Origin: Microbacterium aurugineum
Lineage (GTDB): Bacteria; Actinomycetota; Actinomycetes; Actinomycetales; Microbacteriaceae
Direction of reading: 5' to 3'
DNA length: 64,000 bases
Assembly (NCBI RefSeq): GCF_023101205.1
Contig: NZ_CP078078.1
Location: 2,551,411-2,615,410, forward strand
Both the position numbers and the translations under genes were made by a program. Positions 30,811-60,390 of the stretch are shown here, piece after piece; the stretch's first letter is position 1; every line of letters starts with the position of its first letter. Under the pieces are notes generated by a model, which had not been told where the DNA came from, did not search any database, and saw only the letters and a list, made by a program, of their open reading frames with translations.

Positions 30811-32616
30811 TCAGTCGACGTGACCCAGGCTCGTGAGCGCTTCGGTGCGAGGGGCGACCGGGAGGACGAACCGGAACTCGGTGCCGACGCCCTCCTGACT
30901 CGTGACGTCCATGGTGCCGCCGTGCGCCAGGACGATCGCTCGCGTGATCGTGAGTCCGAGCCCCACCCCCGGTACGGCGTTACGTGTCGCGGTCGACGCG
31001 CGGAAGAAGCGCGTGAACAGCATTCCCTGCTCGTTCTCGGGGATCCCGACCCCGGTGTCCCTGACCGAGAGCTCCACTCCCTCGTCCACCAGGCGCACCC
31101 GCGCCGTGACCCGACCACCGCTCGGCGTGAACTTGATAGCGTTGGAGAGGAGGTTGTCGAGCGCCTGGCCGATCCTTCCGGAGTCGACCACGAGGCGGAC
31201 CGGGTCAGGGCCGACCTCGGCGTCGATCTCGATACCCTCTCGTTGCGCGTGCGGGCCCGCCGACACCACCGCCGAACGGACGAGCTCGGCGACATCGGCC
31301 TCCTCGCGATCGAGCGGGAACCGCCCGGATTCCACCTGTGCGGTGAAGAGGAGGTCGCCGACGAGGTTGAGCAGGCGCTGCGCATTGCGCTCGATGATGG
31401 ACACGAACTCCTGCTGGTCGCCGGTGAGCGGCTGACCGGGATCGTTCTGGAGCAGATCGAGGAATCCGATGATCGCGCTGAGCGGGGTGCGCAGCTCGTG
31501 CGAGATCATCCCGACGAACTCGTCCTTCATCCGGGCGACCTCGACCGCCCTGGTCTCGTCGGTGAGCACGAACAGGTAGCCCTGCTGCGCACCGGCGCCG
31601 TCCTTGTGGGGGCTCACGGTCACGCGGGCGGGAACGGTCGTGCCGCCCTCGGTCGTCACCTCGATGTCACCGTCGACCGTGAGTCCTGCATCGGCCTGCG
31701 CGAACAAGGCCTGGATCCCCGGCGAGAGCTCGTTCTCCCCCGAGCGGCGGTCATCGGACGGCGGCAGGCGGTCGGCGTGCTCCGCCGCCAGCATCGACAG
31801 GACGGCGGTGGAGAAGAAGCGATCGACGCGCACATCTTTCAGCGCCTCACCGGCCGAGAGCCCCAGCAGGCGCTCGGCCCCGGGGTTCCAGGCCGTGACG
31901 ACACCGTCGCGCGTCGTCGCGATCACGGCCTGGGCGGTGATCGATGACCACAGGCTCTCGAACGAATCCAGGAGCTCGCGGTACTGGCGCTCCTTGTCGC
32001 GCAGCTGCACGATCATCGCGACGTTCTCCGACAGCGCCTTGGTGCGCTCGGCCACCAGCTCCTCGGCCTGCTGGACACGGAGGCGCTGCTGTCGGGCGAG
32101 CTGGTTGATGACCGCGGCCACCGCGGCGAACACCAGGGGAGCCACCACGCCGCGGAGCCACTCGGTCGAGGTGTGGGGCGGATCGGTGAGATACGGCATG
32201 AGCAGCGCGACAGACGTCAGGCCCGCGACCACGAAGACCCAGCGGATGCCGGGTGCCGCCGCCAGCCACACCACGGGGAGGAGAACGAGAGCGGAGAAGA
32301 GGGAGCCGGGGCCACCGGTACCGGTGCGGAAGAGGCCGAGGCCGATGATGTCGACGATCGGGATGAGCAGGACCGCCCATCCGTCGTGGATCCGCCGCGC
32401 GGTGAGCACCGCGGCGAGGACGGTGGCCCCGAGGACCAGAGCGATGCCACCGATCGCCGACGCGGCGTGGGTGACCGGCAGGTCCGGCACCCACCAGGTG
32501 AGCAGCCCCGCGAGGACGGCCGCGATGACCGTCGGCGCCTGTTTGAGCAGCGGGCTCGGGTCGTCGAAGATCCGATACCACCGGTTCTCGGCCCGGTCGA
32601 GCGGCGTGGCCCTCAT
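30811..32616 (-). CDS. Membrane PAS-sensor histidine kinase
   Basis: A 601-residue kinase, last gene of a seven-gene coupled operon. Residues 27-175 hold about six hydrophobic spans with short loops, an MASE-like membrane sensor. A helical linker (175-220) leads to a PAS domain (about 215-360; VIATTRDGVVTAWNPGAERLLG). The HisKA domain has the phospho-acceptor His373 in ISHELRTPLSAIIGF. The ATPase has an N-box LDNLLSNAIKFTPSGG, G1 RDTGVGIPENE and G2 GVGLGLTI. All catalytic motifs are intact. The start overlaps the stop of the stand-alone receiver (ATGA), so these two are probable partners. The second receiver, in the PIG-L fusion, is another possible target. Confidence 0.9.
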   Translation of the reverse strand: MRATPLDRAENRWYRIFDDPSPLLKQAPTVIAAVLAGLLTWWVPDLPVTHAASAIGGIALVLGATVLAAVLTARRIHDGWAVLLIPIVDIIGLGLFRTGTGGPGSLFSALVLLPVVWLAAAPGIRWVFVVAGLTSVALLMPYLTDPPHTSTEWLRGVVAPLVFAAVAAVINQLARQQRLRVQQAEELVAERTKALSENVAMIVQLRDKERQYRELLDSFESLWSSITAQAVIATTRDGVVTAWNPGAERLLGLSAGEALKDVRVDRFFSTAVLSMLAAEHADRLPPSDDRRSGENELSPGIQALFAQADAGLTVDGDIEVTTEGGTTVPARVTVSPHKDGAGAQQGYLFVLTDETRAVEVARMKDEFVGMISHELRTPLSAIIGFLDLLQNDPGQPLTGDQQEFVSIIERNAQRLLNLVGDLLFTAQVESGRFPLDREEADVAELVRSAVVSAGPHAQREGIEIDAEVGPDPVRLVVDSGRIGQALDNLLSNAIKFTPSGGRVTARVRLVDEGVELSVRDTGVGIPENEQGMLFTRFFRASTATRNAVPGVGLGLTITRAIVLAHGGTMDVTSQEGVGTEFRFVLPVAPRTEALTSLGHVD

Positions 32617-32960
32617 CGCTCCACCCGCTCCACGATGGCGTGCAGGTCGGCCCCGGTGATGGGCTTCGGCAGAGCCGCATCCGCCGGCGGGTAGTCGGCC
32701 GCGTCGAGCACCGAGCTGATCACGAGGAAGCAGCGAGGGAACCGGTCCTGTACCAGACGCGCGCATTCCTGCCCCGAGATCCCGGGCAGGAGCAGGTCGA
32801 GCACCGCCAGGACCGGATCGATCTCTTCGAATGCGGCGATCGCCGACTCGGCGTCGCGGGCGATGAACACGTCGAAGCCCTCGCGATCGAGATAGCGGCG
32901 CAGCAGCGCCGCCTGATCGGGGGCGTCTTCCACGACCAGGGCCAACGGCCTCCCGGTCAT
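32613..32960 (-). CDS. Stand-alone response regulator receiver domain
   Basis: A 115-residue single-domain receiver with no output domain. Acidic pair in LVVEDAPDQ, phospho-acceptor Asp in AVLDLLLPG (about residue 54), switch Ser in LVISSV and Lys in LPKPIT are all present. Such CheY/Spo0F-like proteins relay phosphate or bind an effector directly. Overlaps by 4 nt both the upstream small membrane protein gene and the downstream kinase gene. The missing output suggests control by protein contact, perhaps with the glycosyltransferase or the small membrane protein. Confidence 0.88.
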   Translation of the reverse strand: MTGRPLALVVEDAPDQAALLRRYLDREGFDVFIARDAESAIAAFEEIDPVLAVLDLLLPGISGQECARLVQDRFPRCFLVISSVLDAADYPPADAALPKPITGADLHAIVERVER

Positions 32961-33100
32961 CGAAGGAACAGCTCTCGCACGATGACGACGGCGACGACGA
33001 CGACGAGAGCGATGATCGCCTGCGGGATCAGTCGCCGCTCGCGGCGCGCATCCTCGGCGATCTCCTCCGCTTCGGTGTCGTGTGACGGTGCTGCGGTCAT
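32957..33100 (-). CDS. 47-residue single-span membrane protein
   Basis: A 47-residue protein encoded with 4-nt overlaps to the glycosyltransferase upstream and the receiver downstream, which strongly supports translation. The N-terminus is acidic (TEAEEIAEDARRERR), then Pro-Gln and a hydrophobic span IIALVVVVAVVIVRELF, ending LR. The N-terminal 28 residues could form an amphipathic helix facing the cytoplasm. No recognisable family. Position suggests an accessory subunit or regulator of the membrane glycosyltransferase, comparable in idea to small partners of polysaccharide synthases. Confidence 0.7.
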   Translation of the reverse strand: MTAAPSHDTEAEEIAEDARRERRLIPQAIIALVVVVAVVIVRELFLR

Positions 33101-34584
33101 GAGTCCACACGTCCGATCTTCTCGGTCTTGATCCAGGAGGCGTCGGCGCGACGCCATTCTTTGATGTACGAATCCACGGTGATGGCGCAGAGCAGGGATC
33201 CGTAGCCGCAGATGTAGAGGAGCAGGCCGGCGAAGAAGCGTCCGGCAGGGAGCGGTTCCACCGCGCGGGCGAGCCAGATCCCCAGCATCGAGATCGGACC
33301 CCACAGATAGAAGATCACCGCCCAGGTGAACAACGTCTGCTCGGTGGCGCGCTGGCCGAGCGCCTGCAGAAGCGCCTGGAACAGCCACGGGAAGAGGGCG
33401 ATGGCCATGAGGAGGAGCGCCCCGAGCCCGGGGAACATGATCGCCTCACGCCAGGAATGCCTCCCCGTTCGCGGGTCGAGCTGCACGGAGAAGAGTATCG
33501 AGAAGAGATAGATGCAGGCCGCCGAGATCCACATGAAGCGGAACACGAACTCGGCGATGTCGCTGTGCAGCACCAGCAGCGCGAGCATTCCCGCCGCGGC
33601 GAGGAGCATGAACGCCGGCAGCAGCAGGATCGTGAACCAGGCCAGACCGAATGAGAAGCTCCCCAGGCGATGGGTGGGGCTCGGACGGAACCACAGCTTC
33701 CGGTAGATCGATGTCAGCTGCACGTTGCCCCGCGCCCAGCGCAGGCGCTGCTTCCACAGGCTGTCGATCGTCCGCGGCTCTTCGGCCAGCACGACGGCGT
33801 GCGGCTCGAAGACCATGCGCCGCCCCTTGAGCTGACCTTCGAACGTGGTCATGGTGTCTTCTGCGAGGGTCCCCGTCGGGATGCGTCCGCCGATCGCCTC
33901 GAGGTTCGCGCGGGAATGCAGCTGCGCCCCGCCGGCCAGGCACGCGATCGCGCCGCCGACGTTCTGCACCCGGCGCGCGGAGAGCTGCCCGATCACGTAC
34001 TCGATCGCGATGAAGCGCGTGAGGTAGTTGCGGTCGCGACTGCCCTCGGCGATGTATGCGGTCGCGGCACCGACGTCGTCGTCGGCGAGATGCCGGCTGA
34101 GCTTGCGGAGGGAGTCGCGTGCGAAGATGACGTCCGCATCCATGATGAGCACGGCTTCGGTCCACTCGTCCGCGAGCGCGACCTCGAGTCCGTGGTTGAG
34201 CGTGTGGGCCTTGCCTTCGCCGCCCTTCTCGCGCCGCAGGTGCACGACGCGTCCAGGATGTGCTGCCGCCTTCGCGGCGACGATGGTGGGCGTGTCGTCC
34301 GTGGACGCATCGTCGACGACGAAGATCCTCAGTCGCTCGCCGGGGTACTCCAGCTGGAGCAGCCGTTCGATGGCGGGGCCGATGACGAGCCCCTCGTTCC
34401 ATGCCGGGATGATGACCGCGACGTTCGGGTGATACGGGGCCGCTTTGCCGTAGTGGTTGCGGAACGCGTGCAGTGGCAGCACGAGGAACTGCAATCCCGT
34501 GTTGACGACGGGCAGCGTGCCGACCAGCACACAGAGCAGGAGGACGACGACGAGCACCGTCTGGAGCCAGGTCAGATCCGTCAT
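33097..34584 (-). CDS. Membrane-embedded GT2 processive-type glycosyltransferase
   Basis: A 495-residue family 2 glycosyltransferase of the hyaluronan/poly-GlcNAc/cellulose synthase type. One N-terminal span (8-30) precedes the cytoplasmic catalytic domain: VIIPAWNEG, FVVDDASTDDT, MDADV (Asp149, Asp151), LAEDTMTT (Glu242-Asp243) and QRLRWARGN (279-287), the QxxRW motif of processive enzymes. Four or five C-terminal spans follow (about 308-470). ATGA overlaps on both sides. With a PIG-L deacetylase in the operon, a GlcNAc-containing polymer or lipid-linked GlcNAc is a reasonable guess for its product; that is inference. Confidence 0.88.
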   Translation of the reverse strand: MTDLTWLQTVLVVVLLLCVLVGTLPVVNTGLQFLVLPLHAFRNHYGKAAPYHPNVAVIIPAWNEGLVIGPAIERLLQLEYPGERLRIFVVDDASTDDTPTIVAAKAAAHPGRVVHLRREKGGEGKAHTLNHGLEVALADEWTEAVLIMDADVIFARDSLRKLSRHLADDDVGAATAYIAEGSRDRNYLTRFIAIEYVIGQLSARRVQNVGGAIACLAGGAQLHSRANLEAIGGRIPTGTLAEDTMTTFEGQLKGRRMVFEPHAVVLAEEPRTIDSLWKQRLRWARGNVQLTSIYRKLWFRPSPTHRLGSFSFGLAWFTILLLPAFMLLAAAGMLALLVLHSDIAEFVFRFMWISAACIYLFSILFSVQLDPRTGRHSWREAIMFPGLGALLLMAIALFPWLFQALLQALGQRATEQTLFTWAVIFYLWGPISMLGIWLARAVEPLPAGRFFAGLLLYICGYGSLLCAITVDSYIKEWRRADASWIKTEKIGRVDS

Positions 34585-35297
34585 GAGGAGGCCTCGATCG
34601 CGTCGAGCAGTGGGATCACACGGGAGTATCGGCCGACATCCGCCGCTTCATGACTGTCCGTGGAGGCGACGAGCTCTCCACCCGCCCGTCGCAGGGCCGA
34701 CAGCACTTCAGGCCCGGGGCACGCCCATTTCTCGTTGACCTCCACCCGTGTCCCGGTCTCGACGGCGGCACGCGCCCAGGCCTGCGTCCGCTCTGCCCCG
34801 AGATCCTGCTCGGACAGCCCGATCTTGGGCAGGAGGGAGAAGCAGTGCGCGAGCTGGTTCCCCGGGTACCGGCGCATCGCGGCGATCAGGGCGTTCACGA
34901 GCTGGTCGAGCACATCGTCCACCGCCCACCCTGCGGCGATCCGCTCGCGCACGACGGACGGGCCGAGCGGACCGTCGACACCCGGGTACTGATGGTCGGC
35001 GATCAGGATCCGGTCGATGCCGTCCGGCAGAGCCGGGATGTCGAGGGATCCGGAGCTGTCGAGGATCTTCGCTTCCACACCGGTGAGCACCACGAGCCCG
35101 TCCGGCACCCGGAGAGCGCGCACGGCGGAGAGGTACTCGGGCACCCAGGTGGTGCTTTCACGCACATGGTCGACCAACCGCACCGTGCTCAGGCCCGACG
35201 CTGCCGCGGCCTCGACATTCTCGGAGAGCGTCGAGACGGCGTCGTCGGAGAAGGTCGAATGGACGTGGTGATCGCCGCGAAGCAGGGGGTGGCTCAC
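34581..35297 (-). CDS. PHP domain phosphoesterase
   Basis: A 238-residue PHP-family protein (HisK/DNA polymerase PHP fold), a trinuclear-metal phosphoesterase. Metal ligands seen: GDHHVHSTFSDDA (His11-x-His13, Asp18/19), a Glu in TGVEAKIL, the LIADHQYPG and LAHCFSLL histidines, and STDSHEA near 215. It resembles the histidinol-phosphatase-like branch more than the capsule tyrosine phosphatases, though the latter are also PHP proteins. GTG start at 35297 overlaps the upstream ATP-grasp stop (GTGA). In the pathway it may dephosphorylate an intermediate. Confidence 0.83.
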   Translation of the reverse strand: MSHPLLRGDHHVHSTFSDDAVSTLSENVEAAAASGLSTVRLVDHVRESTTWVPEYLSAVRALRVPDGLVVLTGVEAKILDSSGSLDIPALPDGIDRILIADHQYPGVDGPLGPSVVRERIAAGWAVDDVLDQLVNALIAAMRRYPGNQLAHCFSLLPKIGLSEQDLGAERTQAWARAAVETGTRVEVNEKWACPGPEVLSALRRAGGELVASTDSHEAADVGRYSRVIPLLDAIEASS

Positions 35298-36283
35298 AGC
35301 TCCTCCTGGTGCCCCGCGTGGTCGGAGACCAGCACGTCCTCGACCTCGACGATCACGTCTTCCAGGAAGCGCACCGAGGCGACCTCACGGAACGGGATGT
35401 TCACCGGCAGCTCACGCCCCAGGAACAGATCCGCGACGAGCGATGGAATGTCGACCCCGGCCGCGATCGTGAGCGGCAGCGCCCCCGGGAAGCGCGGGTT
35501 GACCTCGAGCAGCACGGCACGACCGGTGCGGTCACGACGCAGCTGCACGTTCGCGACGCCCACGAGTCCGATGGCCCGCGCGATCGATGCGGCGGTCTCC
35601 TCGAGCTCGGGGTCACGCACGGTGCGTCCGGCGATCGCGACCCCCGAGTCGACCCTGGCACGGGTGCGCGGCACGGCGGCGACCACAGCACCCGCAGCAT
35701 CGGCGATGACGTCGACCGAGTACTCCTCCCCTGGAAGGAAGTCCTGCACGATCAGGCCTTCGTCCGTGGGCAGCGCCTCGAGAGCGGCACGATCCGGCAC
35801 GAGTCGGACGCCACGGCTTCCCGCACCCTGGCGAGGCTTGGCGAAGACCGGGAACTCCCAGTCGACGGCCTCCGCCTCGGGGCCGGCGAGGACTGTGCGG
35901 GGCGTGCGACCGGTCGGGGCGCATCGCTCGGCGAGGGCGAGCTTGTCGAGCGCGGTGTTCAACGTGTCCGCCGAGGGGGCGGCCAGGACCGCGGGGGCCA
36001 GCTCGTCCCGTCGTCCGGCGAGGGCGATGAGCTCGACATCCACCGTGGAGATCACGAGGTCGAGGGCGTCGGCTTCGACCATCCGCGCGATGGCCGGCAC
36101 GAAGTCCACGTCCCGCCCCGGTGGCACCAGACGACGCTGCGCCGGGGGCACCAGATAGATGCCGCTCGCCCATCCGTCCATGTCGGCGGCGAACACGGTC
36201 AGATCGGCTCGGCGGAGGAGGGAGCGGATCACGGCCACACCTGCCGGACCTCCCGCGCCGGTCACCAGTACGCGCGTCGTCAT
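35294..36283 (-). CDS. ATP-grasp ligase (carbamoyl-phosphate synthase-like)
   Basis: A 329-residue ATP-grasp enzyme. Preceding Rossmann-like domain: VLVTGAGGPAGVAVIRSL and FAADMDGWASGIY. ATP-binding elements: FPVFAKPRQGAGSRGV, a Q-DFLPGEEYSVDVI segment, and the metal site VLLEVNPRFPGALPLTIAAG with Glu and Asn. This layout is shared with PylC and peptide or amino-acid ligases that couple a carboxylate to an amine using ATP. It could attach an amino acid to an amine freed by the upstream PIG-L deacetylase. The ATG overlaps the upstream stop (TGATG). Substrates unknown. Confidence 0.85.
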   Translation of the reverse strand: MTTRVLVTGAGGPAGVAVIRSLLRRADLTVFAADMDGWASGIYLVPPAQRRLVPPGRDVDFVPAIARMVEADALDLVISTVDVELIALAGRRDELAPAVLAAPSADTLNTALDKLALAERCAPTGRTPRTVLAGPEAEAVDWEFPVFAKPRQGAGSRGVRLVPDRAALEALPTDEGLIVQDFLPGEEYSVDVIADAAGAVVAAVPRTRARVDSGVAIAGRTVRDPELEETAASIARAIGLVGVANVQLRRDRTGRAVLLEVNPRFPGALPLTIAAGVDIPSLVADLFLGRELPVNIPFREVASVRFLEDVIVEVEDVLVSDHAGHQEEL

Positions 36284-37326
36284 CAGCTCTCCCGTCGGCT
36301 GAGTTCGTGGGCACCGATGAACTCCGCCGTCTCACGCACGACCTCGAGGGGTTCGACGGCTGTCCCACCCCCGAACCGCGACCAGTATCGTGCGGTCGCC
36401 GTGACGAACTCGGGTGCGAGGTACTCCCGGCTCGCGGTCTGCGAGTGGAAGCTCTCCAGGAGCCGGAGCTTCTCGTCCAGGTACTGGTCGATCCGCACGA
36501 ACCGCGTGGGGCGGAAGTCGATCGTCGACGAGGGGCTCTGGTAGCAGGCGACCGTGCCGACACGCCGAGTGGCCACGATCGTGGCCTCACTCACGGCCCG
36601 GTGATCCTGGTGTCTGTCGTGACCCGAATGCGTGTAGACGATGGTGGGGCGGATCTCCTGCACCACCTCTTCGATGAGGCGCACGGTCGATCCGCCGCCG
36701 GGGATCTCGGTGTCGACGAGGTCCTTGAGGAAGAGCCGGGCGCCGAGCAACTCGGCCGCGGCCAGCGACTCGTCCTGTCGGCTGTCGGCGTCACCGCCTC
36801 TGGCACCGCGGGAGAGGGTGAGGATCGTGATCTCGTCGCCCGCCCTGGCGTGGGCCGCGAGAAGTCCGCCGACGCCGATCTCCACGTCATCGGGGTGCGC
36901 GCCGATCGCGAGCACCCGTTCCGGTTGGCGGGCCCCCTCCCGGCGCCGACGCCCCTCCTCGATCAGCCGGGTGACGGACTCGACGAGTTTGGCGTTGTCG
37001 AGCGGTTTCGTGAGGAACTCGTCCGCCTGCGCACGCAGCGCGGAGACCGCGTACTCGACGGAGACGTGGGCCGTCATCACCAGCACGGGCACGGTCGGAA
37101 CCGTTCGACGCAGCTCGGCCAGCAACTCCAGGCCGCTCAGCCCCGGCATCTCGATGTCGGTCACGACGACGTCGGGGCGCTGAGCGCCGACACGCTCGAC
37201 GGCGACCTGACCGTCTTCCGCGACATCGACGATGCAGCCCGCCCGCCGCTCGAGCACGGTCTTGACGAGCAGGGCGACGTCCGGATCGTCATCGACGACG
37301 AGAACGCGAGGAGAATCCTCAGGCAT
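36283..37326 (-). CDS. Response regulator receiver fused to PIG-L/LmbE deacetylase
   Basis: A 347-residue two-domain protein. Residues 6-122: complete receiver with acidic pocket VVDDDPD, phospho-acceptor Asp57 in VTDIEMPGLSG, Thr85 and Lys107. After an Arg-rich linker (125-136) comes a PIG-L zinc deacetylase (137-347) with AHPDDVEIGVGG (143-154) and GHDRHQDHRAV (235-245), the metal and catalytic residues of the MshB/BshB/LmbE family that removes acetyl from GlcNAc conjugates. Both halves look functional, implying phosphorylation-controlled deacetylation. AAGGAGAGC precedes the ATG. First gene of the operon; I do not know a characterised protein with this architecture. Confidence 0.9.
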   Translation of the reverse strand: MPEDSPRVLVVDDDPDVALLVKTVLERRAGCIVDVAEDGQVAVERVGAQRPDVVVTDIEMPGLSGLELLAELRRTVPTVPVLVMTAHVSVEYAVSALRAQADEFLTKPLDNAKLVESVTRLIEEGRRRREGARQPERVLAIGAHPDDVEIGVGGLLAAHARAGDEITILTLSRGARGGDADSRQDESLAAAELLGARLFLKDLVDTEIPGGGSTVRLIEEVVQEIRPTIVYTHSGHDRHQDHRAVSEATIVATRRVGTVACYQSPSSTIDFRPTRFVRIDQYLDEKLRLLESFHSQTASREYLAPEFVTATARYWSRFGGGTAVEPLEVVRETAEFIGAHELSRRES

Positions 37327-53026: not shown

Positions 53027-53398
53027 TCAGCCCAAGGGTGCGCGCAACGGGTAGTCCTGGTCCTCGAGGATCACCTGCGACGCGGCCCCCGTCGTGCGGT
53101 TCACGATCACCGGCGCGAGCAGGTTCACGCTCACGCCCTCCGCCGACGGGTGGGCGACCACGAGGATCAGTGCGTCTTCGGCGTCGCGGAGAGCGAGTGC
53201 GTCGGCCTGCTCGTCGGTGAGGATCGGCGCGTACTCGCTCAGCACCGTCCGCGGATCGACGAGGTAGAGCCGCAGCTCCGCGTCCTGCACGGCCCGCATC
53301 GCGAACAGTCCGTCGGCGCCGTCGACCGGGGCCAGGGCGAAGTCGACATGCGGCGCGAGTCCGGGAGGCGGGGCGAGGAAAGTCAGCGCCGCGGTCAT
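53027..53398 (-). CDS. fliW: Flagellar assembly factor FliW
   Basis: A 123-residue protein of the FliW family, which binds flagellin and the RNA-binding repressor CsrA in a partner switch controlling flagellin translation. Family signs: LFAMRAVQDAELRLYLVDP, the LVVAHPSAEGVSVNLLAPVIVNRTTGAASQVIL core and the QDYPLRAPL ending. Slightly short but complete. ATGA overlap with flgL, so last gene of flgN-flgK-flgL-fliW. No csrA is next to it. Confidence 0.9.
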   Translation of the reverse strand: MTAALTFLAPPPGLAPHVDFALAPVDGADGLFAMRAVQDAELRLYLVDPRTVLSEYAPILTDEQADALALRDAEDALILVVAHPSAEGVSVNLLAPVIVNRTTGAASQVILEDQDYPLRAPLG

Positions 53399-54276
53399 CG
53401 GAGGAAGTCCATCAGCGACGGCTGGAGCACCCGCGCGTTCACCGCGAGCGCGGAGCGATACACGAGTTCCTGCGCCTGGAGGCGCACGAGCACTTCGATC
53501 GAATCGACGTCCTCGACCGCCGTGCGGCGAGACTCGAGGGACACGGAATTCTGCACTGCCGCCTCCTTGGCGCGTTCGATCTGAGATTGACGGGTGCCCA
53601 CCGACCCCTGGACCCCGAGCATGGCCGTGCGACGCGCGTCGATCTCCGCGAGTCGCGGTCCGACGTTGGTACCGGAACGGAGATCGGCGACGATCCGGTC
53701 CACCAACGCGAACACCGAGTCGTCCCCGGTTCCGAAGACGGCGGCGCCATCGGTGTCGACGCGCACGGAGGCACCGTCGGAGACCCGTCGGGTCACCTCC
53801 GCGCCCGGTACGCCACTGTGGCTGTAGTCGGCGGCGAAGGCTGCCGTGTCCGACGTTCCGGCGAACACGGAGCGTCCGAGCAGCCGGGTGTTCGCCTGGG
53901 CGAAGAGCTCCTCGCGGAGGCCTTCGAGTTCCACGGCCAGTGCTTCCTTGGCCACGGCGTCGAGCGCGCCGTCGTTCGCACCCTGCGCGGTGAGGTCGCG
54001 GACCCGCCCGAGCAGTGAGGTGCTCGCGGTGATCGCCCCGTCGGCCGCCGTGACCCAGGCGAGTCCGTCGTCGATGTTGCGCGCGTACTGGTCGTTGCGT
54101 CGCTGCTCGGCGTGAAGCGCGAGCGCGGCTGCCGCGGCGGCCGGATCGTCGGACGGCGCGGCGAAGGCACGCTGCGAGGTGGCCTGCTCCTGCAGACGCG
54201 CGAGCTCGGAGAGGTTGGACTGCAGCTGCCGCATGGCCGTCTGCGTCATGGCCGAGGAGGTGACTCGAGAGATCAT
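53395..54276 (-). CDS. flgL: Flagellar hook-associated protein 3, FlgL
   Basis: A 293-residue hook-filament junction protein. N-terminal D0/D1 helices (MISRVTSSAMTQTAMRQLQSNLSELARLQEQ, PSDDPAAAAAAL) and C-terminal helices ending in LVYRSALAVNARVLQPSLMDFLR are flagellin-like. The middle is short. Exported through the flagellar apparatus after chaperoning by FlgN. ATG 54276 is preceded by GAAGGAG; 13 nt from flgK. Confidence 0.93.
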   Translation of the reverse strand: MISRVTSSAMTQTAMRQLQSNLSELARLQEQATSQRAFAAPSDDPAAAAAALALHAEQRRNDQYARNIDDGLAWVTAADGAITASTSLLGRVRDLTAQGANDGALDAVAKEALAVELEGLREELFAQANTRLLGRSVFAGTSDTAAFAADYSHSGVPGAEVTRRVSDGASVRVDTDGAAVFGTGDDSVFALVDRIVADLRSGTNVGPRLAEIDARRTAMLGVQGSVGTRQSQIERAKEAAVQNSVSLESRRTAVEDVDSIEVLVRLQAQELVYRSALAVNARVLQPSLMDFLR

Positions 54277-54289
54277 GATGCTCCTTCGA

Positions 54290-55699
54290 TCAGCGTCCGA
54301 CGAGACCCGTGCGGTTGATGAGCACGTCGAGCGCTTCGTCCACCGCGGTCATCACCCGGGCCGCGGCTTGATAGGCGGTCTGGTAGGTGAGCAGACTGAT
54401 GGTCTCCTCGTCGCCGTCGACGGCGGCGACGGACTGCTGCGCGCCGACCGCCGCGACCGCGGCCGCGTCGGACACCTTCGCGCGCTGCACGTCGGCCGCC
54501 GTCGCCACACCGAACCGAGTGACATGGTCGGACCAGAGCGCGTCGGGCGAGGTCGCGCTCCGCCCGATCTGGGAGATCAGGTCGGCGTTGCTCGCGTCCC
54601 AGGCACCGGCGCCCGGGGCGGCGAGCGCCAGGTCCGACGGTGCTGTGATGGCGACGCTCAGCCCGAGTGCGGCGGAACCGGTCGGGGGGATCGTGAAGAA
54701 GTCGCCGCCGGGCTGTCCCGACGATGTGACCCCCGCGCGATGCTGGGTGTTCAGCGCTTCTGCCAGCCGCGTCGCCACCGCGTCGTAGGTGGAAGCGAGC
54801 TGCGCGAGCATCCCTCCATCCGCGGCCGGGGCGAGGACGGCGAGCGAACCGCCGAGCTCTCCGCCGTCGATCGATGCCGGCAGACCGGGAGCGGACGCCC
54901 AGGAGACCGTGAAGCGCTGGCCGGCGTCGATGGTGGCCGGTCCGTCCAGGACGAGATGGCGCGCATCGGAGCCTGCGACGAGGGCGTTGCCGCCGATGCG
55001 CACGGTCATCGTGCCGTCGGTCTCGAGGGTGGCGGCGGCACCCGACATGCGGGCGACGTTCTGCGCGAGCACGCTGCGCTGGTCCATGAGCTCGTTCGCC
55101 GAGCGCCCCGAGGCCAGGGCGTCACGGATCTCGCCGTTGAGCACGGCGATCTGGTCCGCCGCCGCGTTCACCTGGGTGATCGTCCGGTCGGCCGCGGCGC
55201 GGGCATCGTTCCACTGTCCGGCCACCGTCCGGTACCCACCCGCGATCTGCGAGGCGAGTTCCTTCGCGGATTCCAGGATGCTGGACGCCGCGGCCCCCGA
55301 GTCGGGGGTGTTCGCGAGGTCCTGCCATCCCGACCAGAACTTCGACAGTCGGGCCGCGAGCCCGTTCTCGGTCGGTTCGGCGAGAGAGGCCTCGATCGTG
55401 GTGGCGGCGACGGCACGGGTGGACCAGAAGCCGGACGCGGCGAGGGAATCGCGGACGCGGGCATCGAGCAGGGCATCGCCGAGACGGGCCACGCCGTCGA
55501 TCGACACACCGTGCCCCGGCTGTGCGCCGACGCTGAAGCGGCCGGTCTGAGCGATGGCGGCGATGGCCGAGGTCTGGACACGCTGACGCGTGTACCCCTC
55601 GGTCTTCTGGTTCGCGATGTTCTGTCCCACCACGTCCATGCCCCGTCGGGCCGCCGCGAGGCCGCTGGCCGCGGTGTTCAATCCACTGAAGGTCGACAT
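54290..55699 (-). CDS. flgK: Flagellar hook-associated protein 1, FlgK
   Basis: A 469-residue junction protein. ATG 55699 begins MSTFSGLNTAASGLAAARRGMDVVGQNIANQ, the rod/hook N-terminal motif, followed by the FlgK-specific TEGYTRQR. The C-terminus SLLTYQTAYQAAARVMTAVDEALDVLINR is the matching helix. GGAAGGGG stands before the start. Second gene of the leftward flagellar operon, 13 nt after flgN. Confidence 0.94.
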   Translation of the reverse strand: MSTFSGLNTAASGLAAARRGMDVVGQNIANQKTEGYTRQRVQTSAIAAIAQTGRFSVGAQPGHGVSIDGVARLGDALLDARVRDSLAASGFWSTRAVAATTIEASLAEPTENGLAARLSKFWSGWQDLANTPDSGAAASSILESAKELASQIAGGYRTVAGQWNDARAAADRTITQVNAAADQIAVLNGEIRDALASGRSANELMDQRSVLAQNVARMSGAAATLETDGTMTVRIGGNALVAGSDARHLVLDGPATIDAGQRFTVSWASAPGLPASIDGGELGGSLAVLAPAADGGMLAQLASTYDAVATRLAEALNTQHRAGVTSSGQPGGDFFTIPPTGSAALGLSVAITAPSDLALAAPGAGAWDASNADLISQIGRSATSPDALWSDHVTRFGVATAADVQRAKVSDAAAVAAVGAQQSVAAVDGDEETISLLTYQTAYQAAARVMTAVDEALDVLINRTGLVGR

Positions 55700-55712
55700 G
55701 ATCCCCTTCCGG

Positions 55713-56195
55713 TCACATCTCGGTGTCGATGATGCGCGCAGCGTCGTCGCGAGCGCGATCACCCGTCGTCGTGTACTCCCCGGTGTCGTGCCCCAATGCG
55801 GCGATCGTCTCCTGGGTCGCGCGGAGCACTCCGCTGAGCTGTTCCGCGTTGGCGTCGCGCATCTGCTCCACCTCGGCGGCGAGCTTGGTCAGCGCCCGCA
55901 TGTGGTCCGCGAAGACCTCCTGCCACGCACCTTCCGGCGCGTGTGCGATCAGTTCGCGAATCGTCGCGCCCTCGGGAGCCCCCCACTCCTCGGCGACGGT
56001 CGCGACCTCGACGGCGCGTGCGAGTCCCGCGCCACGAAGCCTGTCGAGTACCTGATCGATCTCACGCGCGGCAAACTGTATCCATTGGGATCGCCCGGCG
56101 GCGAGCAGCAACTGCTGCTCGTCGAGCTTGAAGAGCAGCATCTCGAGCAGTTCACGCTCTCGCCACAGCTGTATCGATAGTTCGTTGGCTCCCAT
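55713..56195 (-). CDS. flgN: Flagellar chaperone FlgN
   Basis: A 160-residue mostly helical protein: LSIQLWRERELLEMLLFKLDEQQLLLAAGRSQWIQ and AREIDQVLDRLRGAGLAR match FlgN of Gram-positive bacteria, the cytoplasmic chaperone for FlgK and FlgL, encoded directly after it. ATG 56195 with AAAAGGGG in front is preferred over an in-frame upstream start at 56222. First gene of the leftward operon, led by a sigma-28 promoter 52 nt upstream. Confidence 0.85.
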   Translation of the reverse strand: MGANELSIQLWRERELLEMLLFKLDEQQLLLAAGRSQWIQFAAREIDQVLDRLRGAGLARAVEVATVAEEWGAPEGATIRELIAHAPEGAWQEVFADHMRALTKLAAEVEQMRDANAEQLSGVLRATQETIAALGHDTGEYTTTGDRARDDAARIIDTEM

Positions 56196-56246
56196 GATCC
56201 CCTTTTCCCCAGTGATCGCCACGCCTCATAACGCGGCCAAAGGTCA

Positions 56247-56274
56247 CTATCGGCTGCCGCGCCCCTAAGGTTAC
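56247..56274 (-). promoter_or_regulatory. Sigma-28 promoter for flgN-flgK-flgL-fliW
   Basis: Minus strand GTAACC (-35, 56274-56269), 14 nt, GCCGATAG (-10, 56254-56247). The -10 octamer is identical to those before flagellin and flgB, and the spacing is the same. It matches the CTAA-N16-CCGAT pattern of SigD/FliA promoters. Confidence 0.8.
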
Positions 56275-56292
56275 TATGTGGAACGGCGATGG
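56265..56292 (+). promoter_or_regulatory. Possible weak sigma-28 promoter for fliA (autoregulation)
   Basis: Plus strand CTAAGG, 14 nt, GGCGATGG: 6 of 8 matches to the GCCGATAG box at the same spacing, overlapping the divergent promoter by 10 bp. Located 99 nt before the fliA start. Confidence 0.4.
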
Positions 56293-56391
56293 GCAGTTCT
56301 CCCCATGTACATATCTCGCTCCTTGTGATATATACATCTGCTCATCTCCTCGGATCTTCCGGAGTGCATCCAGAGAGGTGGATCATCCCCC

Positions 56392-57192
56392 ATGCCTTCG
56401 CGCGCTGAGCGCAATCTCCTCATCGAGAGCAACCTCCCCCTGGTCGGATACCTCGCCGCCGAAACCCATTCCCGCGCCACCCACATCCCCCGTGACGAGC
56501 TGGCGGCCGTCGGCGCGCTCGCGCTCGTGACCGCGGCCGATGCATTCGATCCTGCCCTGGGCGTCCCCTTCGGCGCCTACGCGCGCCGGCGCATCCTCGG
56601 TGCCTTCGCCGACGAGATGCGCTCCATGGACTGGGCGTCGCGCGGCATCCGCAAGCGCATCAAAGAGACGGTCGCCGTCCGCGAGACGCTCACCGCCGGT
56701 CTCGGCCGGACCGCGACCCCGACCGAGGTCGCCACAGCGATGGGCGTCACGAAGGACGTCGTCGTCGAAGCACTCGGCGATGCCGCGCGGACCGTGACCA
56801 CCCTGGACGATCCCGCGGCCCGTGACGTCGCCACCGAGATCCCCCTGCCCGAAGAATCCGCCCTCGTCGGCGAACGCCGCGACATCCTCGAGCAGGCCGT
56901 CGCGGCGCTCCCCGAACGTATGCGCCGGATCGTGCAGGCCGTGTACTTCGACGAGCGGCCCGTGAAGGAGATCGCCGAGGAACTGGGGGTGACCCACTCG
57001 GCGGTGTCGCAGCAGCGCTCGGAAGCCATCCGGCTCCTCCGCGACGCTCTGGATCGGTACTTCGCCGAGGGCGCGGCGCCGACGACGACCACGCGCGTGT
57101 CCGCCGGAGCCCGCGACGCCTACTTCTCGCGGATCGCCGATGCGAGCAGCCCGCGGATCGCGGACATCTTCCGCGAAGCCGCCCCCGCCTGA
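56392..57192 (+). CDS. fliA: Flagellar RNA polymerase sigma factor FliA (SigD-type)
   Basis: A 266-residue sigma-70 family member with regions 2, 3 and 4. Region 2: NLLIESNLPLVGYLAAE ... ELAAVGALALVTAADAFDPALGVPFGAYARRRILGAFADEMRSMDWASR, the last part being the FliA-type 2.4. Region 3: KRIKETVAVRETLTAGLGRTATPTEVATAMG. Region 4 helix-turn-helix: ERPVKEIAEELGVTHSAVSQQRSEAI. It has about 40 extra C-terminal residues. Divergent from flgN; drives the three GCCGATAG promoters here by inference. No flgM anti-sigma gene is adjacent. Confidence 0.9.
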   Translation: MPSRAERNLLIESNLPLVGYLAAETHSRATHIPRDELAAVGALALVTAADAFDPALGVPFGAYARRRILGAFADEMRSMDWASRGIRKRIKETVAVRETLTAGLGRTATPTEVATAMGVTKDVVVEALGDAARTVTTLDDPAARDVATEIPLPEESALVGERRDILEQAVAALPERMRRIVQAVYFDERPVKEIAEELGVTHSAVSQQRSEAIRLLRDALDRYFAEGAAPTTTTRVSAGARDAYFSRIADASSPRIADIFREAAPA

Positions 57193-57213
57193 CCCGCGCT
57201 TCTCATCGCCCGG

Positions 57214-57241
57214 CTAACGGGCACGCCACCTCCGCCGATAG
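57214..57241 (+). promoter_or_regulatory. Sigma-28 promoter of flagellin
   Basis: CTAACG (57214-57219), 14 nt, GCCGATAG (57234-57241), 22 nt after the fliA stop. Predicted transcript start about 57247-57249 leaves a leader of about 55 nt. Confidence 0.88.
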
Positions 57242-57253
57242 GTGTGGGCGGGA

Positions 57254-57267
57254 GACCACGGATGGTC
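57254..57267 (+). promoter_or_regulatory. CsrA-type hairpin site in the flagellin leader
   Basis: GACC-ACGGAT-GGTC: a 4-bp stem presenting the ANGGAN hexaloop that CsrA prefers. It sits a few nucleotides into the predicted mRNA. The same loop with a covarying stem is in the flgB leader. Confidence 0.6.
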
Positions 57268-57284
57268 ACCCGCACAACACCATT

Positions 57285-57292
57285 CACGGAGG
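57285..57292 (+). promoter_or_regulatory. CsrA-type site overlapping the flagellin Shine-Dalgarno
   Basis: CACGGAGG matches CANGGANG and contains the start of the ribosome site GGAGGAG, 7 nt before the flagellin ATG. CsrA binding here would block initiation, as in the Bacillus hag leader. Confidence 0.55.
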
Positions 57293-57301
57293 AGAACCCT
57301 T

Positions 57302-58132
57302 ATGGGTATGCAGATCAACACCAACGTGTCGGCGCTCAACGCCTACCGCAACCTGTCCAACACGCAGAACGACCTGTCGAAGTCGCTCGAGAAGCTGTCG
57401 AGCGGCCTGCGGATCAACCGCGCGGCGGATGACGCGGCGGGCCTGGCGATCTCCGAGGGTCTGCGTTCGCAGGTCAACGGCCTGAACGTCGCGGCACGCA
57501 ACGCCCAGGACGGCATCTCGGTCATCCAGACCGCAGAAGGCGCCCTGACCGAAGTCCACTCGATCCTTCAGCGCGTTCGCGACCTGACCGCTCAGGGTGC
57601 GAACGACTCGAACAACGCGAAGTCGCGCGAAGCGATCCAGACCGAGATCGGCGCCCTGGGCGACGAGCTCACCCGGATCGCCGAGAGCACCAACTTCAAC
57701 GGCATCAAGCTGCTCTCGGGCGGCACGACGCTGACGTTCCAGGTCGGTGCGGGCGCGGTCGCCGCCGAGGACCAGATCTCGGTCGCGCTGACCGACTTCG
57801 CCAGCCTCGGCGCCGACATCAAGGGATACGCGGCCACGATGACGGACGCTGCCACCTACGGTGCCGCGCTGGCCGACATCGACACCGAGATCCAGGCGGT
57901 CTCGACCGCACGTGCCGGCTACGGTGCGCTGCAGAACCGCTTCGAGTCGACCATCAACAGCCTCAACGTGTCGGCGGAGAACCTCGCCGCCGCCGAGAGC
58001 CGGATCCGCGACACCGACATGGCGTCCGAGATGGTCAAGTTCACGTCGGCGAACATCCTGTCGCAGGCGGGCACGGCCATGCTGGCCCAGGCGAACCAGT
58101 CCAACCAGGGCGTTCTCCAGCTCCTGCGCTGA
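57302..58132 (+). CDS. fliC: Flagellin
   Basis: A 276-residue filament protein with conserved ends: MGMQINTNVSALNAYRNLSNTQNDLSKSLEKLSSGLRINRAADDAAGLAISEGLRSQ and the C-terminal NLAAAESRIRDTDMASEMVKFTSANILSQAGTAMLAQANQSNQGVLQLLR. The central part (about 140-200) is short, so it keeps D0/D1 with little surface domain, similar to Bacillus Hag. ATG 57302 has a GGAGGAG site. Its own sigma-28 promoter and two CsrA-type sites precede it. Confidence 0.97.
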   Translation: MGMQINTNVSALNAYRNLSNTQNDLSKSLEKLSSGLRINRAADDAAGLAISEGLRSQVNGLNVAARNAQDGISVIQTAEGALTEVHSILQRVRDLTAQGANDSNNAKSREAIQTEIGALGDELTRIAESTNFNGIKLLSGGTTLTFQVGAGAVAAEDQISVALTDFASLGADIKGYAATMTDAATYGAALADIDTEIQAVSTARAGYGALQNRFESTINSLNVSAENLAAAESRIRDTDMASEMVKFTSANILSQAGTAMLAQANQSNQGVLQLLR

Positions 58133-58143
58133 CCCACGCCGTA

Positions 58144-58179
58144 GTGTCCGGGCGGCGGTTCCGCCCGTCGCCCGGACAC
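58144..58179 (+). terminator. Flagellin terminator
   Basis: An 11-bp perfect outer stem (gtgtccgggcg and complement), extended by a G-U pair and further pairs, with a 4-nt apex, 12 nt after the flagellin stop. It separates the abundant flagellin mRNA from fliD; read-through would supply fliD, which has no obvious promoter of its own. Confidence 0.78.
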
Positions 58180-58207
58180 CGTCCGCTCCCGATCCGCAAA
58201 GGCGATC

Positions 58208-59596
58208 ATGTCCCTCTCGCTCGACGGTCTCGTCTCCGGCCTGAAGACCACGGAGGTCATCAAGGCGCTGATGGACGTGCACGCCATCCCGCGCTCGCTG
58301 CTCAAGGCGAAGATGGACGACAAGAACGGCATCGTCTCCCAGCTGCAGACCCTGAACACCGCGATCCAGAACCTCGCGACCGCAGCGGAGAAAGCCGCGG
58401 TCCCCGATGGACTCGCCCGCTTCACCACCACCTCCTCGTCGCCCTCGGTCACCGTCGCCACGCGCGCCGGCGCTGCTCCGCTCTCCGCCGACATCGTCGT
58501 CGACCAGGTCGCCACGAACCACACGATCGTCTCCGCCGCCACACAGGGCTGGCCGGTCGATCCCCCCGTGATCACGCTCGAGAACGCCACGGGCGAGCGC
58601 GTCCAGGTCACGGCCGACTCCGCGTCGATGCAGGACGTCGCCCAGGCGATCAACGAAGCGGGCGCGGGCATCGTCGCCGCCGCCGTTCCCGCCGGGCGTG
58701 ACGCCGACGGGAACGTGATGCACCGCCTGCAGCTGCGCGCCGCGGACTCGGGAGAGGCCGGACAGTTCCGCGCCTATCGCGGTGACATCGCCGCCGTCGA
58801 GAGCGGCACGGCATCCGACCTCTCGACCGAAGCGGGAGCCGCCGTCATCGCCACCGGCGCCGACGCCCGTCTGCGGCTCTGGGCGGGAACGAGCGCAGAG
58901 CAGGTGCTGACCTCGTCAAGCAACACGTTCACCGATCTGTTCGACGGTGTGGACGTGACGGTCACCGCACGTTCCGCCGATCCCGTCACGATCGGCGTCG
59001 CCGTCGACACCGAAGCACGGACGAAGGCGTCGGCGGACTTCATCGCCGCCGTCAAGGACATCCTGACCCGCATCGACAACGGCTCGAAGACGACCGTCGC
59101 CGCGAAGCCGGGAGACAAGACCACCCTCGGCGTCTTCACGGGCGACAGCACCGTGCGCGGGTTGCGCAATGCGCTCGCCGATGCCGTGCAGCACCCCGTC
59201 GACGGGGTCTCCCCCTCATCCATCGGCATCTCGACCGACATGTACGGCGTCCTGAGCTTCGACGAGGAGAAGTTCGCCGAGGCACTCGCGAAGGATCCGG
59301 ATGCCGTGGCCGGCCTCTTCTCCGATGTCGCCGCGCGCGTGCAGGACACCGCGAAGATCTACTCGGACAAGTACGACGGGCTCCTCACCTCCCGCATCAC
59401 GGGTCAGGAGAGCGAGGTCAAGGGCCTCGGCGAGCAGATGGAACGCTGGGACGTGCGGCTCGCGCAGCGCAAGGCCTCCCTCGAGCGCACGTACGCACGA
59501 CTCGAAGTCATGCTGTCACAGCTCCAGTCGCAGTCGACGTACCTCTCGTCGCAGATCGCCGCCCTCCCGGGCTCGAGTTCGAACGGGGGGAAGTGA
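58208..59596 (+). CDS. fliD: Flagellar filament cap protein FliD
   Basis: A 462-residue cap protein that folds flagellin at the filament tip. N-terminal FliD_N: MSLSLDGLVSGLKTTEVIKALMDVHAIPRSLLKAKMDDKNGIVSQLQTLNTAIQNL. C-terminal FliD_C: LSFDEEKFAEALAKDPDAVAGLFSD and a terminal coiled-coil (LGEQMERWDVRLAQRKASLERTYARLEVMLSQLQ). Normal length. Overlaps fliS by a GTGA or ends 2 nt before its ATG. Confidence 0.95.
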   Translation: MSLSLDGLVSGLKTTEVIKALMDVHAIPRSLLKAKMDDKNGIVSQLQTLNTAIQNLATAAEKAAVPDGLARFTTTSSSPSVTVATRAGAAPLSADIVVDQVATNHTIVSAATQGWPVDPPVITLENATGERVQVTADSASMQDVAQAINEAGAGIVAAAVPAGRDADGNVMHRLQLRAADSGEAGQFRAYRGDIAAVESGTASDLSTEAGAAVIATGADARLRLWAGTSAEQVLTSSSNTFTDLFDGVDVTVTARSADPVTIGVAVDTEARTKASADFIAAVKDILTRIDNGSKTTVAAKPGDKTTLGVFTGDSTVRGLRNALADAVQHPVDGVSPSSIGISTDMYGVLSFDEEKFAEALAKDPDAVAGLFSDVAARVQDTAKIYSDKYDGLLTSRITGQESEVKGLGEQMERWDVRLAQRKASLERTYARLEVMLSQLQSQSTYLSSQIAALPGSSSNGGK

Positions 59597-59985
59597 GCAT
59601 GAACGCCGCCCTGCGCGCACAGCAGCGCTACCGCGAGGATGCCGTGCTGTCGGCACCCCCGGAGCGCCTGGTGACCATGCTCTACGACCGGCTGCTGCTG
59701 GACATCGAGCGTGGCGAGACCGCTCAGCGTGCCGAGGACTGGGCCGAGGCGAACGCGCAGCTGCAGCACGCACAGGCGATCGTCTCGGAGCTCTCGTCCT
59801 CACTGACCGACGACTGGAACGGCAGTGCCGGACTGCGTTCGGTCTACCTCTTCCTCTCGCAGACACTCATCGGGGCCAACATCGGCCGCGATCCCGAGCG
59901 CACCCGCGCCTGCCACGGCATCGTCGCCCCACTGCGCGATGCCTGGCACGAGGCCGCCCGCACCGTGGCGGAGAGCCGGGCGTGA
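59593..59985 (+). CDS. fliS: Flagellar export chaperone FliS
   Basis: A 130-residue helical chaperone of flagellin (128 residues from the ATG at 59599). Seen: ALRAQQRYREDAVLSAPPERLVTMLYDRLLLDIERGE, the FliS signature, followed by QHAQAIVSELSSSL and SVYLFLSQTLIGANIGRDPE. GTG 59593 overlaps the fliD stop; ATG 59599 with GGGGGGAAG is equally possible. Confidence 0.93.
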   Translation: MSMNAALRAQQRYREDAVLSAPPERLVTMLYDRLLLDIERGETAQRAEDWAEANAQLQHAQAIVSELSSSLTDDWNGSAGLRSVYLFLSQTLIGANIGRDPERTRACHGIVAPLRDAWHEAARTVAESRA

Positions 59986-59987
59986 GC

Positions 59988-60278
59988 ATGGACGAGTGGA
60001 CCGCGCTGCTCGATCGGCTCGAGCACGACGCCGAACGGATCCTCGCCGCTGCCCCCGGCACCGCGGATGCGGCAGACCTGGCCCCCTGGACACCGCCCGC
60101 CGCTCCGCTTCCCCCCGCGCTCGCGGATCGCGCCAGACAGGTCGTCGAGCTGCAGCGCACGGCGATGGAACGAACCCGCACCGACCTCGACGGCCTCCGG
60201 CAGCACCTCGGCGCCGTGAGCCGCATCCCGGGCACCCGACGCCCCGAGGAGCCCGCCTACCTCGATGTGGACGGCTGA
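59988..60278 (+). CDS. Small helical protein in the FliT position
   Basis: A 96-residue protein (98 if the overlapping GTG at 59982 is used). Helices DEWTALLDRLEHDAERILAAAPG and ADRARQVVELQRTAMERTRTDLDGLRQHLGAV flank a Pro-rich linker. It has no clear sequence match, but size, helicity and location directly after fliS and before flgB fit a FliT-like chaperone of FliD. Coupled to fliS by overlap or 2 nt. Function inferred from position only. Confidence 0.6.
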   Translation: MDEWTALLDRLEHDAERILAAAPGTADAADLAPWTPPAAPLPPALADRARQVVELQRTAMERTRTDLDGLRQHLGAVSRIPGTRRPEEPAYLDVDG

Positions 60279-60287
60279 AACCGCTCC

Positions 60288-60315
60288 CTAACGCCGCGCA
60301 CGAACCTGCCGATAG
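60288..60315 (+). promoter_or_regulatory. Sigma-28 promoter of the flgB operon
   Basis: CTAACG (60288-60293), 14 nt, GCCGATAG (60308-60315), identical boxes and spacing to the flagellin promoter, 75 nt before flgB. Confidence 0.85.
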
Positions 60316-60323
60316 AGCAGGGA

Positions 60324-60338
60324 GAGCACGGATGGCTC
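60324..60338 (+). promoter_or_regulatory. CsrA-type hairpin site in the flgB leader
   Basis: GAGC-ACGGATG-GCTC: same ACGGAT loop as in the flagellin leader and a stem changed from GACC/GGTC to GAGC/GCTC, which keeps pairing. Lies just after the predicted transcript start. Confidence 0.5.
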
Positions 60339-60390
60339 GCATGACTCGGCCAGGGATCGGCCACACCAGCCACACACGGGGAGCCGGTTC

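Follow-up and report, generated by a model that had tools for sequence, protein, structure and literature searches.

Exopolysaccharides of the synthase type shape biofilms, and cyclic di-GMP (c-di-GMP) gates the systems of this type that are well known. In the poly-N-acetylglucosamine (poly-GlcNAc) synthase, PgaC works with a partner protein, PgaD, under c-di-GMP control. Here we describe an operon of seven genes in a stretch of 64,000 nucleotides of Microbacterium aurugineum (the window; contig NZ_CP078078.1, positions 2,551,411 to 2,615,410). It encodes a receiver domain fused to a PIG-L/LmbE deacetylase, an ATP-grasp ligase, a PHP-family phosphoesterase, a membrane glycosyltransferase of family 2 (GT2), a single-helix protein, a lone receiver and a PAS histidine kinase. 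Comparison across genomes shows that the operon genes are inherited as one unit. Our best reading, held with as much belief as doubt, is a two-component-linked synthase of an exopolysaccharide or a lipid-linked glycan, in which the cytosolic deacetylase would be the response-regulator output.

How does this locus compare with described systems? As in PgaC/PgaD, a small membrane protein accompanies the membrane GT2; PgaC_IcaA ranks first among the NCBIfam models for the GT2, and tetratricopeptide repeat (TPR) proteins occur in Gram-negative relatives of the locus. Unlike PgaC/PgaD, the partner is a single helix of 47 residues, an ATP-grasp enzyme and a phosphatase are added, and the seven genes include no deacetylase of the PgaB type, only PIG-L as part of a receiver fusion. 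The GT2 fold is shared with cellulose (BcsAB) and hyaluronan synthases, and one relative (locus L199) has a BcsB-like neighbour, but identity is 14-20%, the cellulose synthase model scores far below its cut-off and the window operon contains no BcsB. A dedicated small membrane co-subunit that is conserved, and fused to the GT2 in some loci, would be a further likeness to synthase-dependent exopolysaccharide systems. The start of glycosylphosphatidylinositol (GPI) synthesis by PIG-A/PIG-L and the hopanoid enzyme HpnI follow a related logic, GlcNAc-type transfer and then deacetylation by a PIG-L protein; here, however, a GT2 stands in place of PIG-A, and the HpnI model reaches 48.5 of the 310 bits required. 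Exosortase/PEP-CTERM loci are resembled by clusters with an exosortase-like gene in two cousin genomes (G630 and G670), whereas no exosortase was matched in the window genome.

The Rubrivivax EmbRS exopolysaccharide locus was considered and set aside, being of the exosortase type, with no mention of ATP-grasp or LmbE in its main text (PMC3684757). The fusion itself has a precedent: P2CS is quoted as listing LmbE among its response-regulator families, with the same domain pair, although the passages available give neither a function nor a gene set (PMC9487997). The receiver-LmbE architecture is thus already known. The first-pass annotation, for its part, knew of no described system with this set of genes. 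No description of that set was found among the matches listed in open-licence PMC full text, which does not prove its absence in print. As far as searched, the gene set, its micro-subunit, the exchange of phosphatases and the coupled decay described below are new.

Inheritance of the operon as one unit

The seven genes (Table 1) overlap at successive junctions by 1, 4, 4, 4, 4 and 4 nt, and all seven show gene-like codon-position G+C. The Pfam domains are as first named, and every catalytic residue given as intact is present: Asp57 of the fused receiver, AHPDD and HQDH of PIG-L, K149/E260/N262/R264 of the ATP-grasp enzyme (which also matches Pfam PF02655), the PHP metal ligands, DxD/ED/QRLRW of the GT2 and His373 of the kinase. 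The 47-residue protein has no Pfam match, and no DNA-binding output domain was matched by Pfam in the operon proteins. The kinase gene has an alternative longer start at 32766, giving 651 residues. Because the identical gene order recurs in other genera, and the GT2/small-protein overlap in other phyla, the operon is confirmed as real and beyond chance. The genome that carries it is a single contig of 3.63 Mb; the closest other fusion protein among the matches listed is from Microbacterium paraoxydans (96%).

Table 1. Genes of the operon, with coordinates in the window
Gene	Position	Strand	Properties
Receiver/PIG-L fusion	36283..37326	-	347 aa; Pfam PF00072 1.1e-32, PF02585 7.4e-25
ATP-grasp ligase	35294..36283	-	329 aa; carbamoyl-phosphate-synthase-like/PylC-like; Pfam PF15632 1.3e-30
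PHP-family phosphoesterase	34581..35297	-	238 aa, GTG start; PF02811 3.6e-8
Membrane GT2 glycan synthase (putative)	33097..34584	-	495 aa; QxxRW; PF13641 6.1e-30
Small protein with a single transmembrane segment	32957..33100	-	47 aa; overlaps GT2 stop by 4 nt
Stand-alone receiver	32613..32960	-	115 aa; PF00072 5.8e-12; Asp55 present
Membrane PAS histidine kinase	30811..32616	-	601 aa; HisKA 2.4e-20, HATPase_c 1.6e-28, PAS_9 1.1e-6

Do the signalling genes and the enzyme genes belong together? Within the genus, a PHP orthologue occurs in 25 of 149 genomes, the window's own included (E<=8.2e-84). Fusion, ATP-grasp, PHP, GT2, receiver and kinase were found together in the window and in 18 other genomes whose wider surroundings were examined; the remaining six of the 25 were covered without such wide surroundings. 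At the level of the family, 299 genomes were queried separately with the fusion (E<=1e-40), the GT2 (E<=1e-100) and the ATP-grasp protein (E<=1e-50), yielding matches in 51, 31 and 31 genomes. The 31 genomes with GT2 are those with ATP-grasp, and all lie within the 51 and carry the fusion, as the proposal of a functional unit had implied. PHP adjoins ATP-grasp in all 22 members of the 31 that were examined outside the genus. In the five genomes of genus code g56 the GT2 gene lies far from the ATP-grasp gene or on another contig, yet is present in 5/5; at this separate site (L140-L144) no small-protein open reading frame (ORF) follows it. One genome, G173 (L145), has a second full-length GT2 elsewhere, 58% identical to that of the window.

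Fusions devoid of the enzymes are a minority, so the outcome that the first-pass annotation had named as refuting a functional unit, most homologues of the fusion lacking the enzyme genes, was not seen. The 20 genomes matched by the fusion query outside the 31 comprise 17 with full fusions (L087, L089-L101, L146-L148), one with a weak fusion (G254) and two with matches to the receiver half alone (G269, G337). A search of these 20 whole genomes returned no ATP-grasp (E<=1e-20) and no GT2 (E<=1e-30); PHP was not found in their fetched loci, no genome-wide PHP search having been made there. A kinase match stands beside the fusion in 16 of the 17. We used neighbouring nitrilase and aminotransferase genes, which also flank many full operons, solely as markers of the chromosomal slot, with no functional role assigned. 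The nitrilase gene is upstream in 11 of the 17 loci, ten of which also have the aminotransferase downstream, and six have neither. Fusion and aminotransferase lie ~7.9-8.2 kb apart in seven complete operons that have the nitrilase gene upstream (L072, L079, L081, L186, L187, L219 and L228, with L079 and L186 apparently one contig), against 4.0-4.6 kb in nine enzyme-less loci and 5.3 kb in L148. The shorter distance indicates that in these loci the middle genes have gone from the same slot. For this loss, a quick method requires two changes on the tree among receiver-bearing rows.

Beyond the family, the fusion query (E<=1e-25) matched six of 396 genomes in a phylum-wide draw: the window's own, two with full fusions and three with PIG-L only. 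With an ATP-grasp alignment as bait, 430 loci were confirmed in a GTDB contig set, and the counts that follow refer to the best 80, the most similar fraction. They come from Actinomycetota (55), Pseudomonadota (20), Gemmatimonadota (2), Myxococcota (2) and Chloroflexota (1). PIG-L scores at least 200 bits in 75 of the 80 (74 with complete coordinates), and fusion and ATP-grasp lie side by side in four phyla, all those sampled except Myxococcota, whose loci L194 and L220 show no PIG-L within the DNA examined around them. A GT2 with complete coordinates is present in 58 loci; PIG-L and GT2 occur together in Actinomycetota, Pseudomonadota and Chloroflexota, and the two Gemmatimonadota loci have no GT2 within the DNA examined. 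Thirty selected GT2s share 41-59% identity with that of the window. The clusters most widely shared in a conserved-neighbour search were kinases, receivers and TPR proteins. The unit recurs within Microbacteriaceae, where a neighbourhood search had been suggested, but its core is not confined to that family. Downstream of the operon, one locus from Agrococcus matches receiver/PIG-L a second time, though more weakly (L213:13740-14500).

Coupled decay of the receiver/PIG-L fusion

The fused receiver has the acidic pair, the phospho-acceptor aspartate, the Thr/Ser and the Lys of response regulators with enzymatic output, and is joined to an enzyme domain in a CheB-like logic. The PIG-L half has the metal and base motifs AHPDD and HxDH; its catalytic set is H144, D146, D147, H239 and H242, with roles that we take to be those of MshB-type enzymes. 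None of these five residues is altered in any of the 43 aligned fusions that have ATP-grasp/PHP neighbours, that of the window among them, and 9 of the 17 fusions that lack ATP-grasp and GT2 have a change in one or more. Asp57 is present in all 60. Four rows were left out of this count: L102 (weak fusion) and L105, L124 and L125 (no receiver). A Fisher test of PIG-L decay against enzyme loss gives 1.6e-6, a descriptive value that ignores relatedness.

The distant loci found with the ATP-grasp bait offer the converse comparison. PIG-L residues are intact in all 74 that are readable (of 75). All 39 loci with a window-like kinase (at least 100 bits) within the DNA examined retain Asp57, which is missing in 8 of the 36 without one: seven substitutions, five of them in Streptomyces or Microtetraspora, and one truncation. 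In nine loci from Streptomyces, Kitasatospora, Microtetraspora and Actinopolyspora (L156, L159, L160, L168, L184, L195, L204, L206, L224) the receiver half is weak or unscored, the PIG-L residues are intact and Asp57 is lost in five of the nine; no kinase was matched within the DNA examined there. Comparison shows that each half of the fusion tends to be retained with its own partners. This coupled decay links the receiver to PIG-L activity, as first proposed, if indirectly. An enzyme-less fusion with an altered PIG-L site and a retained receiver aspartate is possibly a phospho-switched pseudo-deacetylase with a second role.

Could a signalling pair and an enzyme set simply share a transcript? 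The 17 family genomes with the fusion but no ATP-grasp or GT2, their neighbouring kinases, and the 36 of 75 distant loci without a kinase within the DNA examined would fit such a loose neighbourhood. It is largely refuted by co-occurrence, however, and we consider it hardly credible: in the fusion a single polypeptide combines both sets, the ATP-grasp and GT2 lists coincide, fusion and ATP-grasp are neighbours in four phyla, and PIG-L decay is confined to loci without the enzymes. The enzyme set also brings to mind a pathway for a low-molecular-weight thiol of the mycothiol or bacillithiol type, built by a glycosyltransferase, a PIG-L enzyme and a ligase. BshB1 is indeed the best PIG-L-type model for the fusion among the matches listed, at 89 bits, but this is short of the 182 bits set as cut-off. 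In the window genome MshB went unmatched (E<=0.001) and MshC did not exceed its cut-off; genomes G162 and G232 have MshC over the cut-off, and MshB-like matches below it, away from the fusion; and the glycosyltransferase here is a membrane GT2. Given the BshB1 score and the lack of MshB and MshC over cut-off in the window genome we rejected this pathway, to which we would assign next to no probability. Anti-phage defence was likewise dropped, PADLOC returning only a weak SduA match that covers the receiver (4e-7).

The GT2, its small partner and an exchangeable phosphatase

That the GT2 is of the membrane synthase type, as originally described, is borne out by its NCBIfam matches and by fold comparison. 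PgaC_IcaA, its top model, scores 117.1 bits versus a cut-off of 422.3, which is not reached, and matches all 31 GT2 members scanned. The DxD, ED and QxxRW features of processive membrane GT2s are all present. An AlphaFold2 (AF2) model (pLDDT 92.5, pTM 0.90) resembles PcManGT, the best structural match, and hyaluronan, cellulose and chitin synthases.

An ORF of 37-89 residues with one hydrophobic stretch lies at the GT2 stop codon in 87 of 110 GT2-bearing stretches and, with few exceptions, overlaps the GT2 gene by 4 nt (the script allowed 30-90 residues, some genomes were counted twice and L145 is dubious). A profile of the small protein matches 69 of the 80 contig loci and, among the fetched loci L066-L123 excluding the enzyme-less ones, 42 of 44 (it misses L102 and L105); it matches none of the 17 loci without ATP-grasp and GT2. 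In Leifsonia-type loci that lack an adjacent GT2 the small protein remains in the operon. Fusions of the two proteins occur in Streptomyces and Gammaproteobacteria: the small protein makes up the C-terminal end of the GT2 in L204 (Streptomyces, 3.9e-9) and in L230 (5.7e-6), with weaker matches there in L198, L214 and L221 (0.007-0.09). Because it is fused to the GT2 C-terminus in relatives and conserved beside it elsewhere, comparison shows the 47-residue product, first noted simply as a membrane protein, to be a conserved, predicted single-helix partner of the GT2.

The ATP-grasp protein matches PDB entry 2pn1 by sequence and by fold (AF2 model, pLDDT 93.3), and PHP matches YcdX (1m65) at 8.7e-10. 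A complete PHP gene is present in 58 of the 80 loci, in 54 of them at most 60 nt from ATP-grasp on the same strand; L153 and L176 contain PHP fragments. In Pseudomonadota the slot is mostly filled otherwise: of 20 loci, 15 encode a histidine phosphatase in full and L226 encodes part of one, two have PHP and two (L218, L227) have neither phosphatase. The histidine phosphatase belongs to PF00300 in all five scanned and starts no more than 27 nt before the ATP-grasp gene ends, by start codons that a script selected. The two phosphatases occur together in none of the 80 loci. Two unrelated folds exchanged in one slot speak for a dephosphorylation step, as which PHP is best read and as had been supposed, and comparison shows that a phosphatase belongs to the pathway.

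Neighbouring genes in relatives give further hints of the product. In Proteobacteria the loci also encode TPR proteins (19 loci have a TPR-type cluster), whose starts look signal-peptide-like by eye in L181 and L198. The BcsB-like neighbour of L199 (PF03170 3.3e-12) has a counterpart in L155 (108 bits with a local profile) and weak ones in L154 and L166. In three Legionella loci (L198, L217, L221) a gene for a GH81 glycosidase lies upstream of the GT2. GH81 enzymes are beta-1,3-glucanases, a hint that the glycan of these species may be beta-1,3-linked. Together, the TPR proteins and the rare BcsB-like and GH81 neighbours point to an exported glycan in Proteobacteria.

Two cousin clusters in Actinomycetota (L105, L124; genomes G630 and G670) instead combine PIG-L without a receiver, GT2, an exosortase-like gene and ATP-grasp, the exosortase-like gene lying between GT2 and ATP-grasp (PF09721, 39.6 bits in L105 and 25.3 in L124, cut-off 25.7); in L124 a UDP-GlcNAc 2-epimerase follows (PF02350 3.7e-87), which fits the GlcNAc-type precursor of the reading that we favour. 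Among 23 genomes searched, PF09721 exceeds its cut-off only in G630, G670 and G673, the last with the gene on another contig than PIG-L, and G173 has one weak match. The clusters with an exosortase-like gene also bear on a different product. The GT2 might put a single GlcNAc on a lipid, PIG-L deacetylate it on the cytosolic side, ATP-grasp aminoacylate it and PHP remove the lipid phosphate, as in a GPI-like aminoglycolipid; the result would be a cationic glycolipid rather than a polymer, possibly a protein anchor in the exosortase-bearing cousins. PIG-L acting on lipid-linked GlcNAc is a known step of eukaryotic GPI synthesis, and the GT2 matches NCBIfam models for HpnI and for glycosyltransferases associated with XrtG/XrtP. 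We nevertheless regard the aminoglycolipid as rather unlikely, since TPR, BcsB-like and GH81 genes are the usual company of polymer export, the window genome has no exosortase match and the GT2 fold resembles that of processive synthases.

A putative phosphorelay-tied glycan synthase

How might the parts work together? In the two-component-linked synthase that we favour, the membrane-bound PAS kinase would phosphorylate both receivers, the lone one and that of the fusion, and phosphorylation would switch the cytosolic PIG-L deacetylase. PIG-L would take the acetyl group off a GlcNAc-type precursor or lipid-linked starter, ATP-grasp turn the freed amine into an amide and PHP remove a phosphate, while the GT2 and its single-helix partner would polymerise the sugar or transfer it across the membrane. 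The signal, the substrate, the order of the steps, the effect of phosphorylation and export of a polymer are all inferred.

A third possibility follows from the known role of c-di-GMP as allosteric switch of cellulose and PNAG synthases: PIG-L, ATP-grasp and the phosphatase might make a soluble amide that switches the GT2 in its place. The receiver does sit on the deacetylase rather than on the GT2, and the GT2 of g56 is retained though unlinked. Yet no receptor domain was matched in the GT2 or the 47-residue protein, and precursor supply accounts for the co-occurrence equally well; such a messenger seems to us improbable.

Several observations weigh against the favoured synthase. The unit is accessory and patchy, since few genomes of the genus (25/149), the family (31/299) and the phylum-wide draw match. 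Its putative substrate and product derive from sequence and context rather than from biochemistry. The GT2 scores far under the cut-off for PgaC and is matched best in structure by a mannosyltransferase, PcManGT, and GH81 would go with a glucan more readily than with a polymer of GlcNAc. BcsB-like evidence is clear just in L199 and L155, and the TPR proteins scanned gave no BcsC/PgaA domain match. In 4 of the 58 loci PHP lies more than 60 nt from ATP-grasp or on the other strand, and 4 of the 80 have neither phosphatase (L194, L220, L218, L227). The decay counts are non-independent (an independent-pairs test finds two pairs, and the sign test is not significant), and 8 of the 17 enzyme-less fusions retain all five PIG-L residues. 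Likewise, 28 of the 36 loci without a kinase keep the receiver aspartate, and the DNA examined is limited, so the half of the decay argument that concerns kinase and receiver is the weaker. Taken as a whole, the initial interpretation is partly supported.

Elsewhere in the window, positions 53395-63048 hold a gene run that looks flagellar by eye.

These loci may represent an unnamed class of glycan synthase that crosses phyla, a proposal to which we give an even chance. Its response-regulator output would be the cytosolic deacetylase of the pathway, in place of DNA binding or c-di-GMP, and its core would comprise the receiver/PIG-L fusion, ATP-grasp, a GT2 with its single-helix micro-subunit, and a phosphatase interchangeable between PHP and the histidine type; lineages without the enzymes would keep the fusion as a phospho-switched pseudo-deacetylase. 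In many lineages, a conserved gene set is seemingly tied to a phosphorelay through an enzyme that tailors the precursor, with the receiver left to degenerate in Streptomyces and its relatives. These natural variants separate signalling from catalysis within one fusion protein. A 47-residue protein without any family-model match is assigned a role, and the operon provides a testable gene set for a putative surface glycan.

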